A stretch of DNA of 64,000 nucleotides. It comes from Flammeovirgaceae bacterium SG7u.111. Lineage in GTDB: Bacteria > Bacteroidota > Bacteroidia > Cytophagales > Flammeovirgaceae. This document shows, piece after piece, positions 47,471 to 58,360 of the stretch; the first letter of the stretch is position 1, and each line of letters starts with the position of its first letter. The position numbers and the translations under genes were made by a program. Under the pieces are notes generated by a model. The model had not been told where the DNA came from. It worked only from the letters and a program-made list of their open reading frames with translations, and searched no databases. The stretch lies in the NCBI GenBank assembly GCA_034044135.1, contig CP139021.1, positions 7,168,001-7,232,000 of the forward strand, in the 5' to 3' direction.

Positions 47471-50400
47471 ATGATTAATTCTAACCTAAACCGTTTCAAA
47501 CAGAAATACTACCTCAACTCATTGTTGAAAGGTAGTATTTCTGTTTTTGCAGTTTCTTTCACTGCATACTACTTAGTGAACATATTGGAGTACCTAGGAA
47601 ACTTTAGCAGTGTGTTTAGGGGGATTCTGTTTTATTCATTTATACTCACCCTTTCTGCTTCTTTCTATTATTGGGTAATCCGTCCCTTATATAGGCTACT
47701 CAATAGAGACAAGCAGCTAGATGATTTTGTTGCCGCAAAAAAAATAGGTGATCACTTTCCTGAAATCAACGATAAGTTAGTAAATACCCTACAGCTCCAA
47801 AAATTAAAAACCGAAGGAAATGATCTAGTCTTGGCCAGTATCCAGCAAAGAGAGGAGAAAATAGACCAATTTGATTTCACTAAGGCGGTTGACTATTCTT
47901 CCAATAAAAGATACCTAAAATTCATTGCCTTCCCTGCATTTTCTATTTTTATTACCTTACTTTTTGTACCACAGCTCTTTACAGAAAGTACACCAAGGTT
48001 GGTCAACTATGAAAAAACGTACGCTCCTAAGGCACCTTTCGATTTTATAGTCCAAAATGATGCTTTAAAAGCTTTTAAAGGGGAAAATTTTGAACTCAAG
48101 CTCAAATATGCAGGCAGCGCTATTCCTCAAAACACAACTATTATTACAGAGGACGGTCGTAAATTAAAAATGTCTGCAACAGATTCAGCTGGGCAATTTT
48201 CCTTTCTTTTTAAGAAAATTCAAAAAAACACAAACTTTCATTTTGAAGCATCAGGCTTTAAATCAGCTAATTATAACCTTGAAGTACTTGCCAGACCAAG
48301 CCTGAGAAGTTTTAACGTTTACCTAGATTACCCTAAATATATTGGGAAGGAAAATGAAAGGCTCGATAATAACGGAAATTTGATAGTTCCCGAAGGAACA
48401 AATATCAAATGGCAATTTAATACACTAGAAACCAATAACTTACAAGTTAATTTCCCAAAAAGGGATAATCTTGTTTCTACAATAAAAAACAACAAAGATC
48501 TTTTTGAATTTGGAATAACCTCTTCTAAATCAGAAACTTACCAGTTACTCTTAACAAATGAGTTTAGCTCAAACAAAGACATAATAGAATACTATATCAA
48601 TGTAATACCAGATGAATTTCCATCTGTGAATATGCAGCAATATGAAGATACGGTGCTTTACGATTACTTGGTACTAGGTGGAAATATTGGAGATGATTAC
48701 GGGATCACCAACCTTACCTTTAACTATAAGGTGCTTAGCGGAAGAAACGGTGAAAGCAAAGCAACTAAAAGCATTAGGCTTAATTTCAATCCAAATGCCA
48801 TCAACCAAAGCTTTTTTTACCAGTTTGATATTTCTAAACTCGATCTTTCACAAGGAGATGAGCTTGAATATTACGTAGAAGTTTGGGACAATGATGCTGT
48901 AAATGGTAGAAAGAGCTCAAAATCAAGCACTTTCAATTTTAAACTTCCTTCTAAAGCTGAGCTAAAAGAAGCAATAAGCCAACAAACGGAACAAACTCAA
49001 GAACATCTAGAGGAATCGTTAGAAAAAGCGAAAAACCTTAAGAAAGAAATAAAAGATATCCAAGATAAGCTTAAAGGAAAAAGAAAACTTGACTGGCAGG
49101 ACAAACAAAACATAGAAAAGCTTGCCCAAAAACATGAAGAGTTGCAGAAGGAAATAGAAAAACTGAAGCAGCTCAACAAGATGTTTGATGAGAAGAAAGA
49201 AAAGTTCAATGCGCAAAATGAGGAAATTTCTCAAAAAGCAGAGCAACTCCAAAAATTGATGGACGAGCTATTGGACGAGGAAACCAAGAAGCTTTACGAA
49301 GAGCTTCAAAAACTGATGATGGAACAAAACTTCATCAATCCTGATTTCCAAGAAATGCTCGACCAGATAGAAATGAAGGAAGAGACTATTGAAAAAGAGC
49401 TGGATAGAGCACTTGAGCTTTTCAAACAACTAAAATTTGATAATAAAGCCAACGAAATAATAAAAGACCTTGAAGAGTTGGCTGAAAAACAAAAAGAACT
49501 TGCCGAAGAGACCGAGGAAGCGAAAAATTCGGAGTTAGAAGAAATAGAGGAGAAGCAAAAAGAATTGAACGAGGAGTTTGAAGAGATTCAAAAAGAACTG
49601 GAAGAGCTAGAGGAAATAAACGAAACTCTTGAATCCCCAAAAGATATTGAGCAGCTGGAGAAAGAGCAAGAACAAATAGAGCAAGAGCAGCAACAAGCTT
49701 CGGAAAACCTCCAACAAAAGAAACAAAACAAAGCTTCTGAATCGCAACAGAAGATGTCGAAAGACATGAAGAAAATGGGGCAGAAGATGCAGCAAATGCA
49801 ACAATCGATGCAAATGCAGCAGATTACTGAAAATTATGATGATCTTAGGAAAATATTAGAGAATTTGATCAAACTTTCTTTTGACCAAGAAGACTTAATG
49901 CTAGATTTTCAGAAAGTTAAAAGAATAGACCCTAAATTTGTAGAGCTCGGACAACAACAACTTAAATTGAAGGATGATGCCAAAATAATTGAAGATAGTT
50001 TGGTTTCGCTTTCAAAAAGAGTTTTCGAAATAGAATCGTTTGTGACTAGGGAAGTTTCATCTATGAATAAATATATGGATGAAAGCCTTGAGTCGATTAG
50101 AAAACGAAGTCCTGAGATTGCCGCTAGTAAGCAGCAATTCGCCATGACATCGATAAACAATCTTGCTTTGCTTTTAAATGACATATTGAAAAGCATGCAA
50201 AACCAAATGAGCATGGCAATGAGCGGACAGCAAATGTCTGAAAAGCAGGGTGGAATGCCAAACATGAGCGACTTGCAAAAGCAGCTTAACCAAAAGATTC
50301 AAAACTTGAAAAAAAGTGGTAAGTCTGGAAGAGCTTTATCTGAGCAATTAGCCAAACTAGCTGCAGAGCAGGAAATGATCAGAAATGCGATGAAAAAGAG

Positions 50401-51755: not shown

Positions 51756-51771
51756 TGTTCCACGTGGAACA
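51756..51771. other. parS-like ParB binding site 1
   Basis: TGTTCCACGTGGAACA, a perfect 16-bp palindrome matching the ParB/Spo0J parS consensus. The palindrome extends symmetrically to 24 bp (51752-51775). The T-run after it could also serve as a weak terminator for ybeY. Lies 4 bp after the ybeY stop. Confidence 0.7.
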
Positions 51772-51888: not shown

Positions 51889-51904
51889 TGTTCCACGTGG
51901 AACA
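51889..51904. other. parS-like ParB binding site 2
   Basis: A second exact copy of TGTTCCACGTGGAACA, 133 bp from the first and 33 bp before the mnmG ATG. Two identical copies around a single promoter are unlikely by chance. Confidence 0.7.
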
Positions 51905-51936: not shown

Positions 51937-53802
51937 ATGGATAGAAATTATGATGTAATAGTGATAGGAGGGGGGCATGCTGGCTGTGAAGCCACTCATG
52001 CATCTGCTACTATGGGAGCAAAGACACTTCTCATTACTATGGATATGAATAAGATCGCCCAAATGAGCTGCAACCCTGCAATGGGAGGTGTGGCAAAAGG
52101 GCAGATTATACGAGAAGTTGACGCATTAGGGGGGATGAGCGGAATAGTGACTGATAAAACGATGATCCAGTTTAGGATGCTCAATTTATCAAAAGGTCCT
52201 GCTATGTGGAGTCCACGTGCCCAAAGTGACCGTATGAGGTTTGCTGAGGAATGGCGTATAAAACTTGAACAGAACCCAAATGTGGATTTTTGGCAGGAAA
52301 TGGCTACTGAGCTTATTGTCGAGAAAGGTGTATTGAAAGGAGTGAAGACTGCCATAGGGGTAGAGTTTTATGCAAAGAGCGTCATCTTGACTAATGGGAC
52401 ATTCTTGAATGGATTGATCCATATAGGCGAAAAGCAATTTGGTGGTGGAAGGGCAGGGGAGAGGCCTGCAAAAGGATTGACAGAGCAATTGGTTGCTTTA
52501 GGTTTTGAAGCTGGAAGGATGAAAACAGGGACTCCTCCTAGATTAGATGGCAGAACTATCAACTACGAAGCTCTAGAAGAACAAAAAGGGGATGAAAACC
52601 CTGGTAAATTTTCGTATTCTGATGAAACGACTACTTTGAAAGAACAAAGAAGTTGCTTTATCACCTATACCAGTGATGAAGTTCATGATATCCTGAAAAA
52701 GGGGTTTGAGGAGTCGCCGATGTTTACTGGTCGAATCCAAGGTATAGGACCAAGGTATTGTCCTTCTATAGAGGATAAGATAAATAGGTTTGCCGAAAGA
52801 AACCGCCACCAGATATTTGTAGAACCAGAAGGTTGGAACACGGTAGAAGTATATGTCAATGGTTTTTCAACATCACTTCCAGAAAGAGTGCAATATGAAG
52901 CGTTGAGAAAGATAAAAGGTTTTGAGAATGCAAAAATGTTCCGCCCAGGGTATGCTATTGAGTATGATTATTTCCCACCTACTCAACTGAAGCTAACTCT
53001 TGAAACAAAACTGATCGAGAATTTATATTTCGCAGGTCAGATAAATGGAACAACTGGATACGAAGAAGCCGCCTCCCAAGGTTTAATTGCGGGAATAAAT
53101 GCGGTAAACAAAATAAAAGAGAAAGAGGAATTTATTCTAAGTCGTTCTGATGCGTATATAGGTGTGCTGATAGACGATTTGGTGAACAAAGGTACGGAAG
53201 AACCTTACAGAATGTTTACTTCAAGGGCAGAGTACAGGCTTTTATTAAGGCAAGACAATGCTGATGTCCGCTTGACCCAAAAAGGACATGCTATAGGTTT
53301 AGCTTCCGATGCAAGCCTTGAGACCGTAGAGAAAAAAATGTCGGAGGTTCAAGACTTGGTTAGTTTCTTAAAAAGTGAAAGTGTAAAACCTGAAGATGTT
53401 AATAACCGCCTAGAAGAGTTAAACTCAGCTGCTATTCCTCAGAAACTAAAGATTGCCCAACTGATAAAACGTCCTAATATAGGAATTGAAATGCTTGAGA
53501 CTTGTAATGAGTCTATTCAAAATAGACTTGGTGCTGTCGACAATGTAGTAAAAGAACAAGCTGAAATTCTACTGAAATATGAAACATACATAGATAAGGA
53601 GCAAAAGATCGCTTTGAGGCTGAGTAAACTTGAGAATTTCAAAATAGATGAAAAGCTGAATTACGAAGAGATAAACGCAATGTCAAACGAGGCTAGGGAA
53701 AAGCTAAAAAAGATAAAGCCAAAAACTATTGGGCAAGCTTCGAGAATAAGTGGGGTTAGCCCCGCAGACATTTCCATATTAATGGTTTATCTAGAAAAGT
53801 AA
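51937..53802 (+). CDS. mnmG: tRNA uridine-5-carboxymethylaminomethyl(34) synthesis protein MnmG (GidA)
   Basis: 621 residues, full length. FAD-binding N-terminus VIVIGGGHAGCEATHAS; the GidA signature GPRYCPSIEDKI with the conserved Cys; GRAGERPAKGLTEQL; and the C-terminal helical domain (RISGVSPADISILMVYL). Works with MnmE to make cmnm5U34 in tRNAs for split-box codons. mnmE is not in the window. The gene name gidA, from the neighbourhood of oriC in E. coli, fits with the origin candidate 2.3 kb downstream. Confidence 0.97.
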   Translation: MDRNYDVIVIGGGHAGCEATHASATMGAKTLLITMDMNKIAQMSCNPAMGGVAKGQIIREVDALGGMSGIVTDKTMIQFRMLNLSKGPAMWSPRAQSDRMRFAEEWRIKLEQNPNVDFWQEMATELIVEKGVLKGVKTAIGVEFYAKSVILTNGTFLNGLIHIGEKQFGGGRAGERPAKGLTEQLVALGFEAGRMKTGTPPRLDGRTINYEALEEQKGDENPGKFSYSDETTTLKEQRSCFITYTSDEVHDILKKGFEESPMFTGRIQGIGPRYCPSIEDKINRFAERNRHQIFVEPEGWNTVEVYVNGFSTSLPERVQYEALRKIKGFENAKMFRPGYAIEYDYFPPTQLKLTLETKLIENLYFAGQINGTTGYEEAASQGLIAGINAVNKIKEKEEFILSRSDAYIGVLIDDLVNKGTEEPYRMFTSRAEYRLLLRQDNADVRLTQKGHAIGLASDASLETVEKKMSEVQDLVSFLKSESVKPEDVNNRLEELNSAAIPQKLKIAQLIKRPNIGIEMLETCNESIQNRLGAVDNVVKEQAEILLKYETYIDKEQKIALRLSKLENFKIDEKLNYEEINAMSNEAREKLKKIKPKTIGQASRISGVSPADISILMVYLEK

Positions 53803-53968: not shown

Positions 53969-56062
53969 GTGAAAAATACATCTGTCAAAAAGCTAATAAG
54001 AACTTCTGTCTTTTATTTATTTGTAACACTTCTATTATCTGACTGTGCAAGTGTTCAGCCCCCTCCGGGCGGACCAAAAGATGAAGACCCACCTATTTTG
54101 ATAGGTACTGTTCCTAAAACAGGAAGTATAAATTACAAAAGTAGATCAATCGAGCTCATTTTTAATGAATCAGTTCAGCTTGATAATATCTTTAGACAAT
54201 TGATCATTGCCCCTTATAGCGATATCAGGTATGTAACCAAGATCAAAAAGAATGTGGTTACACTCGAATTCGACGAAGACTTGGAAGAAAATACCACGTA
54301 TTCCCTCAACTTTAGAGAATCGGTAGTGGATGTCACTGAAAAAAATATTGCCAAGAATGTAAAAGTAGCTTTTAGTACGGGCGATTACATCGATTCGCTG
54401 AAGATAGAGGGAAATGTAAGTGAATTATTTTCCGGGAAACCCTCGGAAGAAGCTACGGTGATGCTACTTAGAGAAGAAGATACACTCAATGTTCAGAAGC
54501 CTTATTACCTCGCCAAAACAGATGAAGAAGGAAATTACCTCTTGGAAAATATAAGAGAAGGTATTTACCAAATCTATGCGGTATTTGAAGATGACAATAA
54601 CTTGCAGTACACCGGTGAGGAAAAAGAGCTTTTCGGGTTCAAGGCTGATAATATAACGCTAGACTCCAACCTAATTGATATGGATTTTCAACTAGCTAAA
54701 TACGATATTGAAGATATCTTTTTCAAAAGAACAGGTGTCGACGCTCAGTATGCAGAAATAGAATACAACAAGAAAATCGAGAGCTACGAATTTGAACTAC
54801 TTGATGAGGACATGAAAGATTCCGTTTATCATATCTTAAACGAGAATATGATAAAGCTATATAAATTAAAAGACCCAGCTGATACTGTAATAGAACTATC
54901 AAGATCGGAAAGAAAAAAGGAAAGGAAAAAAGAAGCTGAAATAGAAAATAACCCTGAAGCAGCAGCAGATTCTCTCACAGCAATAATTATTGCATACGAT
55001 GAACTAGGACAATCTAGTACAGATACGGTAAAATTCACTTTCTCAGAAAGAAGGTCAGTAGATCCTGAACCTTTATCAGTATCTATTTCCCCAAAAAATG
55101 GAGGGAAAATGATCCCTGAAGAAACATTTGATGTAGATATCACTTTCAACAAACCAGCCTTAAAATTTGACCCCGATAAGATAAATATTCTCCGAACCAG
55201 GGATACTACACTATATAACCTAGATACAATGTACTATGTATTACAGGCAGATACTTTATTATTAGAAGTTGATAGCACATTATTGATTCCTATAAAGGAA
55301 ATCCAAGATGAGAATGAGGAAGAAGGAAAAATCGAACCAGTGCCTGTAGAAAGCGATACATTGGAGCTCGTGTATAATAAGGAGCTTAAATTTGATTATT
55401 CCATACTAGGAGATAAAATAGACCTTATAATCAAACCCAAGGCAACTGATAGGGATAAAAGTATCACACAAGTCAGTGCCAATGCCGATACGGTCATCTA
55501 TGCTATCAATATATTGAATTTAAATAGCTTCACACTAGATACTACCTACTATGAAACCGAAGTGACCGACACGCTTCCAAACCCTTACGAACTTGAAACT
55601 CTTCCAAATTTTTCAAAAATAACCATAAAGGATTATTTACCTGCGGATAGAGAAGCTATTCTCCTCGACTCCTTAGCCTTCCTTTCGGTAGAATATGACA
55701 CGCTTAAAGGTGAAAAGGCTAGTTATAAACTTAAGAATATTGATGACTACGGAAGTATAGAAGGAAGAGTAGAGACTGACTTTACAAGCTTCTTTGTACA
55801 ACTGCTCAACGATAAGTTTGAGGTAGAGCAAGAACTTGTGAACCAAAAAGAATTTAGGTTTGACTACGTGGAGCCAGGCACCAAGTATTTGAGGCTTCAG
55901 GTTGATAATAATAATGACGGGGTTTGGGACAAAGGCAATTTCAGAGAGCGCCGCCCAGCAGAAGATGTCTATTTTAGTGAGAAAGGTGGGATAGATGTGA
56001 AACCAAACTGGGAAATACTTGGCGAGTTGATTTCAACAAAAAAGAAAAAAACGAAAAAGTAA
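53969..56062 (+). CDS. Big_5/Ig-like domain lipoprotein
   Basis: 697 residues starting at GTG. The N-terminus KLIRTSVFYLFVTLLLSDC leads into C-A-S-V-Q-P-P-P-G-G-P-K-D, the hallmark of Bacteroidota Big_5 lipoproteins (the -1 Asp in the lipobox is unusual). The first Ig-like (SbsA/Big_5) domain covers about 38-135: PKTGSINYKSRSIELIFNESV ... VTLEFDEDLEENTTYSLNF. A carboxypeptidase-regulatory-like region (GNYLLENIREGIYQIYAVFED) follows, then another Ig-like domain (about 365-395) and a C-terminal DNNNDGVWDKGNF stretch. Acidic throughout. Function unknown; it ends just before oriC. Confidence 0.8.
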   Translation: MKNTSVKKLIRTSVFYLFVTLLLSDCASVQPPPGGPKDEDPPILIGTVPKTGSINYKSRSIELIFNESVQLDNIFRQLIIAPYSDIRYVTKIKKNVVTLEFDEDLEENTTYSLNFRESVVDVTEKNIAKNVKVAFSTGDYIDSLKIEGNVSELFSGKPSEEATVMLLREEDTLNVQKPYYLAKTDEEGNYLLENIREGIYQIYAVFEDDNNLQYTGEEKELFGFKADNITLDSNLIDMDFQLAKYDIEDIFFKRTGVDAQYAEIEYNKKIESYEFELLDEDMKDSVYHILNENMIKLYKLKDPADTVIELSRSERKKERKKEAEIENNPEAAADSLTAIIIAYDELGQSSTDTVKFTFSERRSVDPEPLSVSISPKNGGKMIPEETFDVDITFNKPALKFDPDKINILRTRDTTLYNLDTMYYVLQADTLLLEVDSTLLIPIKEIQDENEEEGKIEPVPVESDTLELVYNKELKFDYSILGDKIDLIIKPKATDRDKSITQVSANADTVIYAINILNLNSFTLDTTYYETEVTDTLPNPYELETLPNFSKITIKDYLPADREAILLDSLAFLSVEYDTLKGEKASYKLKNIDDYGSIEGRVETDFTSFFVQLLNDKFEVEQELVNQKEFRFDYVEPGTKYLRLQVDNNNDGVWDKGNFRERRPAEDVYFSEKGGIDVKPNWEILGELISTKKKKTKK

Positions 56063-56097
56063 GAAAATCACTTCATTATCAATAGGATAGCATTAAA

Positions 56098-56545
56098 AAC
56101 AAAGAGGCTGTGGTTTAAGTTGCCAACTTATTCACAGTCTCTTTGTTGATAAATAGGCTATTGTTGATAAATCTCTAAAAAACACAAAAGTTATCAACAC
56201 TTATCAACAGCTATCAACATAAATTTTGGATGAACGAGTTATTAACTGACTTATTGTATTCCGCCAACTTAGATTCACAACTTATTAACCACGAATAACC
56301 TGTCCTGAATTATTCACAAAAACAAACCTTAGTGTTGATAACTTATATATCTAACTAATTATCAAGTAATTACAAATTTATTAAATGTTGGTAAACATAT
56401 GAATCACGAGGTTTTTACCAACACAAATAGTTATCAACAAATCAACACACCTAATAACAATAAGTGTTTTATTTATATATTAAATATATATTTATAATTA
56501 GTGTTGTTAGTTAATAAAGTCTCACGAGCTAACTAAATTCAGAAT
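56098..56545. other. Candidate chromosomal replication origin (oriC)
   Basis: Gene-free spacer with a cluster of DnaA-type nine-mers (TTATNNACA). Forward TTATTCACA at 56128 and 56310; forward TTATCAACA at 56191, 56201 and 56431; reverse TGTTGATAA at 56144, 56162 and 56333. A related CTATCAACA is at 56211, so 56191/56201/56211 are in exact 10-bp steps. TTACCAACA-type boxes lie in inverted orientation at 56386 and 56415. An AT-rich unwinding-type stretch (about 56467-56515) follows. A 15-bp inverted repeat (56098-56147) and a 10-bp one (56386-56423) add structure. dnaA itself is not here. Confidence 0.7.
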
Positions 56546-58360
56546 ATGTCTAAGTCCTTAAAAAAAAACCTTAGTATTTTTTCTTTCCTTTTCATTTCAT
56601 TCTATGCCCTTTCGCAAGACAATAATGTTGAGCTAGCAAATCAGTATTATGCAAATGATGAGCTAGACAAAGCTGTGGAGTTGTACGAAAAGCTTGTTAA
56701 AAAACCTTCTGATCGTGCTCTTGTGCACCGGAACTACTTGGAAGCTCTAATGAGATTGGAAGAGTATAAGGATGCTGAGAAGTACCTTAAAAAGCTTCTG
56801 AAGGATGAGCCTTACGATGCACGGTATAATATTGACTATGCGATGCTTGTAAGTGCCCAAAAGGGTGAGCCCAAATCAAATGAGTATTTAGATAATTACT
56901 TAGAGCAAATAAAGAAGAACGATTCCCAGCTTCAATACGCTGCCACGTTTTTTATTGATAACGGAAAGTTTGAATATGCTGAGAAGTCATTTTTAATGGC
57001 TCAAAAGAATAATGTTGAAAACTTTTACGATGAACTGGCAGACCTTTATGCGCTTTGGAACAAGCCAGAGAAAATGGCTGCTGAGTACATTAAGATTTTG
57101 GAGGAGGATCCAAGTAAGCTCGAATATGTGGAAGACATGCTCCAAGAAAGATTGGGCGAAGAAGAGGATTTTGATAAGCTAGGGAAAATATTGGTTGAAA
57201 ATGTTCAGAAAAAGCCTGATCAGCCTGTTTTCAATGAGTTGTTGATTTGGTATTTCTTACAAAAACAAGAGTTCTACAAAGCGTTTATTCAGGCCAGGGC
57301 AATTGACAAGAGAAAAAGGCTTGAAGGTCGTAAAGTTCTGGAAATAGGAAAGTTAGCTTTGGGTAATGGAGCTTATAAAGATGCAAGCAGGATATTTCAA
57401 TACCTTGTTGATAAGTACGAGAATAAGAATGTTTATTTTAGTGCGAGGCGCTTGTTGGTAAAGTCGAAGGAAGAACTTGTAAAACATACTTTCCCAATAG
57501 ATCTGGATGAAATACGCTCATTATCAAATGATTATAGCAATATAGTAAAAGAACTTGGCATTCGTCCCAATACGGCAGACGCTGTGAGGAGTATGGCGTT
57601 GCTGCAGGGCTTTTATCTAAACAATGTTGATACGGCCATAATTATCTTGGAAGACTTGGTCAAAAGACCTGGCATGAAAAAATATTTGATCTCGAATGCC
57701 AAGCTCGACTTGGGAGATATTTACCTCCTCAAAGGAGAACCTTGGGAAGCCTCTTTGCTCTATAGCCAAGTGGAAAAAGCAGAGAAAGATGAAAACCTTG
57801 GTCACTTTGCCAAGCTAAAAAATGCCAAGCTTTCTTATTACAAAGGCGAGTTTGAATTGGCAAAGGCGCACTTAGATGTGTTGAAAATGGCTACTTCTAG
57901 GGAAATAGCCAACGATGCCATGCAACTCTCATTACTTATCCAAGATAACCTTGCGCTAGATACTTCCGATGTGGCCATGAAAGCATATTCTTCTGTGGAG
58001 CTTTTGGTGTTCCAAAGTAAGTACGAAGAAGCCATTGTTGCCTATGAAAATATGCTTAAAGAATTTGCAAACCACAGCCTGACCGACGAGATCTATTGGG
58101 AACTTGCCAACATCAATTTGAAGCTTGGGAATTTTGACGAATCAATTACTTCATTAGAAAAAATATTAGAGGAATATCGCTACGATATATTGGCGGACGA
58201 TGCCAATTTCCTCATTGGAAAAATATATGAAGAAAACATGAATAACCCTGAAAAAGCAATGGAGTACTACGAAGCACAGCTCAAAGATTTTCCAGGGAGT
58301 ATTTACAATGTAGAAGCCAGAAAACGCTTCAGGAAATTGAGGGGCGATAGCCTTAACTAG
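56546..58360 (+). CDS. Secreted TPR-repeat protein
   Basis: 604 residues. Signal peptide (KKNLSIFSFLFISFYALSQ, cleaved before DNNVELANQYY), then about ten or more tetratricopeptide-like helix pairs: AVELYEKLVKKPSDRALVHRNYLEALMRLEEYKDAEKYLKKLLKDEP, later GSLYSQVEKAE-type and a last set ITSLEKILEEYRYDILADDANFLIGKIYEENMNNPEKAMEYYEAQLKDFP. Probably a periplasmic scaffold. The ATG is 31 bp beyond the AT-rich end of the origin candidate, so its promoter lies inside that region. Confidence 0.8.
   Translation: MSKSLKKNLSIFSFLFISFYALSQDNNVELANQYYANDELDKAVELYEKLVKKPSDRALVHRNYLEALMRLEEYKDAEKYLKKLLKDEPYDARYNIDYAMLVSAQKGEPKSNEYLDNYLEQIKKNDSQLQYAATFFIDNGKFEYAEKSFLMAQKNNVENFYDELADLYALWNKPEKMAAEYIKILEEDPSKLEYVEDMLQERLGEEEDFDKLGKILVENVQKKPDQPVFNELLIWYFLQKQEFYKAFIQARAIDKRKRLEGRKVLEIGKLALGNGAYKDASRIFQYLVDKYENKNVYFSARRLLVKSKEELVKHTFPIDLDEIRSLSNDYSNIVKELGIRPNTADAVRSMALLQGFYLNNVDTAIIILEDLVKRPGMKKYLISNAKLDLGDIYLLKGEPWEASLLYSQVEKAEKDENLGHFAKLKNAKLSYYKGEFELAKAHLDVLKMATSREIANDAMQLSLLIQDNLALDTSDVAMKAYSSVELLVFQSKYEEAIVAYENMLKEFANHSLTDEIYWELANINLKLGNFDESITSLEKILEEYRYDILADDANFLIGKIYEENMNNPEKAMEYYEAQLKDFPGSIYNVEARKRFRKLRGDSLN

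Follow-up and report, generated by a model that had tools for sequence, protein, structure and literature searches.

The window, the whole 64-kb stretch of DNA that was analysed, corresponds to C1:7168001-7232000 in a genome that totals 7,717,694 bases and consists of two contigs, C1 (7,664,104 bases) and C2 (53,590 bases). A gene-free spacer in this window is bordered by two genes on the forward strand, and a pair of parS sites and mnmG lie farther upstream. The features are listed below in window coordinates.

51756-51771, no strand: perfect parS TGTTCCACGTGGAACA, a 16-bp palindrome
51889-51904, no strand: perfect parS TGTTCCACGTGGAACA, a 16-bp palindrome
51937-53802, forward: mnmG (gidA), NCBIfam TIGR00136, 854.5 bits
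53969-56062, forward: gene of 697 codons between mnmG and the spacer; a homologue lies upstream in conserved origin loci
56063-56545, no strand: predicted oriC, the gene-free spacer, 483 bp, 27% GC, eight exact DnaA boxes
56128-56136, forward: DnaA box TTATTCACA
56144-56152, reverse: DnaA box TTATCAACA
56162-56170, reverse: DnaA box TTATCAACA
56191-56219, forward: three boxes in 10-bp phase, 56191 TTATCAACA, 56201 TTATCAACA and 56211 CTATCAACA (one mismatch)
56310-56318, forward: DnaA box TTATTCACA
56333-56341, reverse: DnaA box TTATCAACA
56386-56423, no strand: inverted repeat TGTTGGTAAA / TTTACCAACA, containing two one-mismatch boxes
56431-56439, forward: strong upstream box TTATCAACA of the unwinding-like module
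56439-56447, forward: weak second box AAATCAACA, in 8-bp register with the first, matching 5 of 7 fixed positions
56451-56463, forward: trio-like triplets CTA-ATA-ACA-ATA-A (lower strand 3'-GAT-TAT-TGT-TAT-5'), 11 nt past the strong box
56467-56500, no strand: AT-only run of 34 bp, predicted DNA-unwinding element
56546-58360, forward: gene for a TPR-repeat protein, adjoining the unwinding side; matched in 52 of 58 genomes (own included)

The gene at 53969-56062 found no match in an NCBIfam search and carries the working label 'Ig-like', which is our assumption. The TPR protein shows, by sequence comparison, 61-63% identity to those of two metagenome-assembled genomes and of Flexithrix dorotheae (Flammeovirgaceae, Cytophagales, Bacteroidota). 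Also among the closest to the window's are the TPR proteins of two loci titled Thalassobius and Thalassovita (L116 and L117); we take both genera to be Alphaproteobacteria, and the loci are probably mislabelled metagenome-assembled genomes. The parS pair is located between ybeY and mnmG, 4.2-4.8 kb upstream of the spacer, and comprises all exact matches to TGTTNCACGTGNAACA that the genome contains (51756 and 51889). The sites that the earlier note had called 'parS-like' are therefore perfect TGTTCCACGTGGAACA palindromes and the sole exact pair. As expected of a ParABS centromere, ParB is also encoded; its sole match (TIGR00180, 180.9 bits) is at C1:3160774 (3.161 Mb), 0.47 of the circle from the spacer. 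mnmG is among the origin-associated genes listed for other bacteria in the part of PMC2099444 drawn on here.

All eight exact TTATNNACA nine-mers claimed for the spacer, in both orientations, were located (56128+, 56144-, 56162-, 56191+, 56201+, 56310+, 56333- and 56431+), six of them TTATCAACA and two TTATTCACA. At least three close variants had been announced; ten one-mismatch sites were counted. One of these, CTATCAACA, sits at 56211, and because of it the reported 10-bp phase of 56191, 56201 and 56211 is real. Inverted repeats bearing boxes were likewise found in the spacer. A cluster of eight exact boxes within 483 bp of gene-free DNA is rare: the count was reached in none of 5000 dinucleotide shuffles of the spacer (mean 0.41, maximum 5), and its Poisson probability is ∼5e-13 at the sampled genome density of 0.229 boxes per kb (367 boxes in 1.6 Mb, from 80 other 20-kb stretches, one of them from the small contig). 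The densest 450 bp of those stretches holds three exact boxes. Inside the window the runner-up 450 bp holds two, in keeping with the earlier statement that the density is unmatched there.

Cumulative GC skew was followed over 82 stretches of 20 kb, 79 from the genome and three from the window. It has its minimum at ∼7.208 Mb and its maximum at ∼3.46 Mb, 0.49 of the chromosome apart, so that the presumed terminus lies about opposite the site. (Fractions of the circle rest on C1 taken as circular.) The best two-break fit places the switches at 3.51 and 7.218 Mb, and the spacer is at 7.224 Mb. The genome-wide minimum, a check set beforehand, thus falls at the window. Inside the window the running minimum falls at 48,624, 7.4 kb short of the spacer, so the origin can be placed by skew to within no better than tens of kilobases. 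A group of three DnaA boxes within 41 bp (G000:C1:3466207-3466230, L199) was also noticed close to the skew maximum, near the presumed terminus.

Adjacency of dnaA to an origin is frequent and not obligatory, and here it is lacking, as had been stated. dnaA was matched only once, at 3.917 Mb; this places it 3.31 Mb, or 0.43 of the circle, away from the spacer and 0.46 Mb away from the skew maximum. A search for a better origin next to it gave none: the 4.4 kb examined there contain no exact TTATNNACA.

The module of box pair and triplets at 56431-56463 had escaped the earlier note, which was made from sequence alone. The third of its triplets is without a middle A. Beyond them lies the AT-only run, the single one of at least 20 bp in the 64-kb window, which adjoins the boxes as a predicted unwinding element would. 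An AT-only stretch at the right edge had indeed been described; its length is 34 bp (56467-56500) and not the 50 bp then given. Comparison of named relatives revealed a recurring design at the near edge of the sequence that precedes the TPR gene: two DnaA boxes in 8-9 bp register, then a short and often GC-rich stretch, CTAATAATAATAA-like triplets and finally AT-rich DNA. A simple module score of at least 19 was attained by 47 of 78 named loci, two of the 80 being omitted for too little upstream sequence, and by 6 of 216 control pieces, with the window at 24; these counts lean towards success because the pattern was devised after inspection of the same loci.

A test free of this bias was provided by searching the own genome with R1, a 50-position sequence profile built from 22 relatives, among which the window was checked not to be. 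With 150 of 3610 first-look candidates scored across the whole genome, the top match lay in the window (56428-56476, 26.1 bits, E 7.7e-5), and the next best among them, a box pair without triplets, reached 18.0 bits. The second and third matches are tandem DnaA-box pairs lacking triplets, ∼500 bp apart (G000:C1:260555-261086, L197 and L198), and possibly represent DnaA-titration or regulatory sites.

The arrangement is conserved in part of the order. Among the 54 full-length loci of the 80 named Cytophagales-type TPR loci, mnmG, its neighbour, the module and parS are all found upstream of the TPR gene in 23, none of them in 24 and a mixture in 7. Of 58 genomes (the own genome and 57 relatives), 35 contain exact parS. 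In all 25 genomes, own included, that carry parS and the TPR gene on one contig, the two lie within 13.3 kb of each other, with parS upstream in 24 and downstream in one; in the remaining 10 they are on different contigs or no TPR gene was found (G038). In the 76 of the 80 named loci with 700 bp of sequence ahead of the TPR gene, the density of exact boxes over those 700 bp is 3.07, versus 0.23 per 700 bp in the rest of each locus; 23 of the 76 have no exact box upstream.

With an E threshold of 0.01, R1 matched in 29 of the 58 genomes, own included (103 first-look candidates scored per genome). A missing match means little, since G007, itself part of the profile, was missed. The best match lies at most 350 bp from the TPR start in 21 of the 29; four of these (G008, G011, G015 and G040) contain training sequences of R1, and in G056 the match amounts to no more than a box pair, which lies on the opposite strand. 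In the other eight (G019, G026, G028, G037, G038, G050, G051 and G052) the best match is away from the TPR gene, with a second match adjoining that gene in G026. Module and parS share a contig in G019, G028 and G051, with the TPR gene on another. In G037 and G052 the module is remote from the TPR gene and has 14 and 18 boxes around it, respectively, and it seems that either the origin or the TPR gene has moved. No exact parS and no parB match were found in G018, G037 and G052, the three sampled genomes of one family in the order; ParABS loss together with origin relocation is a possible account of that family.

In 12 of the 58 genomes one contig carries both dnaA and the TPR gene, always separated by ∼0.25 Mb (G002) or more; G037 and G052, where the TPR gene is away from the likely origin, are among the 12. 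Skew is weak in G021, from another family: the best split, at 3.49/7.98 Mb, agrees with the TPR gene and module at 3.67 Mb, and the running minimum, at 3.04 Mb, is 0.63 Mb from the module. Nineteen loci, titled Pontibacter (13), Adhaeribacter (5) and Botryobacter (1), have the TPR gene without a convincing module 5' of it: 18 stay below a score of 19, and L170, for which just 390 bp of upstream sequence are available, reaches 19. Across the class, R1 matched in 19 of 247 genomes, the own genome and four others of the order included (24 candidates scored per genome). A link between the TPR gene and oriC beyond the order was considered and is not seen, as none of the 14 outside loci, each spanning 3 kb or less, contains the TPR gene.

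The boxes themselves differ among lineages. They are TTATTCACA in 15 of 15 cases upstream of the TPR gene in L101 (G054) and mostly so in L088, mostly TTATCAACA in L085-L087, and mostly TTATCCACA in L109-L112, which offers a chance to study co-change with domain IV of DnaA. In the Flammeovirga loci L128-L131 and L133, covered from ∼1 kb before the TPR start to 5 kb past it, boxes run into and past the TPR gene, with 10-20 of them at +1 to +5 kb versus 1-3 in the next 5 kb. L090 (G004) holds 36 boxes in 4.8 kb.

Taken as a whole, these observations are best explained if the spacer is the single chromosomal oriC, fired by a remotely encoded DnaA and with parS as its centromere, a reading that we regard as very probable. 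The candidate origin put forward by the earlier note is thus supported by the skew minimum, parS, the unwinding-like module and conservation in relatives. The steps from DnaA binding through unwinding, helicase loading and initiation to the action of ParB are predicted from sequence. Encoded nearly half a circle away, DnaA would bind the boxes of the spacer and load from the strong/weak pair at 56431-56447 onto the lower-strand triplets at 56451-56463. It would then open the AT-only run at 56467-56500, where helicases could load and two forks depart. The upstream parS pair may serve as the centromere for ParB, so that origin copies would be separated soon after copying. A bolder proposal, which we consider rather doubtful, is that the layout is inverted, with oriC and parS at one pole of the chromosome and dnaA and parB near the terminus; dnaA dosage, rising late, could then itself time initiation, and the Cytophagales module, tolerating a broken trio, might represent a form of the basal unwinding system (BUS) peculiar to this lineage.

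As skew resolves tens of kilobases only and its running minimum in the window is at 48,624, the origin could lie elsewhere within that distance, the spacer being a site of DnaA titration or reactivation of the datA/DARS kind. This is highly improbable. No other 450 bp of the window exceeds two boxes, the only other sampled 450 bp with three is near 7.3055 Mb (L080), and no genome candidate scored gave a comparable R1 match. Moreover, a box pair followed by triplets and an AT-rich run, kept in several genera, would not be expected of such a site. The boxes also stand directly 5' of the TPR gene and could mark a DnaA-regulated promoter region that is no origin. Weak promoter-like matches are present, but they number 6 against 3.8 expected in 801 bp, and a promoter leaves the skew switch and parS unexplained. 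It fits poorly, too, with G019, G028, G051, G037 and G052, whose TPR gene is distant or on a separate contig and whose module, away from that gene, has 5 to 18 boxes around it; in the first three, parS stays on the contig of the module. We therefore hold the promoter reading to be very improbable. Chance clustering is suggested by the 27% GC of the spacer and is excluded by the 5000 shuffles, none of which reaches eight boxes; similar arrangements in independent assemblies argue against an assembly artefact, and the odds of either are negligible.

Reading the spacer as oriC has practical consequences. Metagenome growth-rate estimates, marker-frequency work and replicating vectors depend on a correct origin, and dnaA, the usual landmark, sits nearer the terminus here and would mislead. 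The parS-mnmG-oriC-TPR block together with the 50-position profile supplies a dnaA-independent landmark for part of the Cytophagales, and the module is a concrete substrate for tests of DnaA unwinding in Bacteroidota. Judging by the title of a paper by Xu et al. from 2012, replicative oriC plasmids reportedly work in Cytophaga (Cytophaga hutchinsonii). No published Cytophagales origin with this block appeared among the literature matches listed, which consist of titles and abstract openings with subscription papers mostly outside, so that the negative is a weak one. The earlier suggestion that automated finders reliant on dnaA would miss the site was overstated, because skew and lineage-specific indicator genes enter the scoring of Ori-Finder 2022 as well, according to the portion of its description at hand (PMC10225481), and the program is not bound to miss it.

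The module invites comparison with the BUS of Bacillus subtilis and others, which, in the excerpts used of PMC8287927, has tandem boxes with the stronger one upstream and AT-rich DNA beyond, a box-to-first-trio spacing that peaks at 10-13 nt, and GAT as the first trio (PMC8287927). The present module is alike in having its stronger box upstream, a spacing of 11 nt, GAT first and AT-rich DNA beyond; the pair at 56431 and 56439 is well within 16 nt of the triplets. It differs in its third triplet, which reads TGT, so that the at least three consecutive 3'-NAN-5' trios of a strict BUS are wanting at 56451 (GAT-TAT-TGT-TAT); the comparison is one of sequence. This strict trio rule is satisfied by 32 of the 48 modules scoring at least 19 (window included). 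It discriminates poorly because 352 of 500 shuffles of the AT-rich spacer pass, and as a test of the site it was dropped as too permissive. The variant seen in the window, CTAATAACAATAA, recurs in four of the five Flammeovirga loci (L128, L129, L131 and L133; not L130). The module appears to work like a BUS; we call it BUS-like and do not class it as a proven BUS, because the strict rule does not hold for it.

mnmG close to the origin recalls gammaproteobacteria, whose oriC lies close to gidA/mnmG (gidA-mioC) in the sections of PMC10225481 and PMC2099444 drawn on; here, in contrast, a 2.1-kb gene separates mnmG from oriC and the TPR gene is on the other side. That the candidate origin is remote from dnaA, as the earlier note had it, holds, though the point was overstated: cases in Bacteroidetes are on record, and oriC is stated to be commonly far from dnaA in that group in the excerpted account of Prevotella intermedia OMA14 (PMC4755523). 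Chromosome I of that strain (DoriC) likewise has a DnaA-box cluster at the skew switch with dnaA not nearby. As such origins have already been described for Bacteroidetes, the present site is a further example of a known sort; parS, mnmG, the synteny with the TPR gene and the unwinding module are features found here and absent from that part of the OMA14 account (PMC4755523), and what is added is the synteny and the lineage-specific module.
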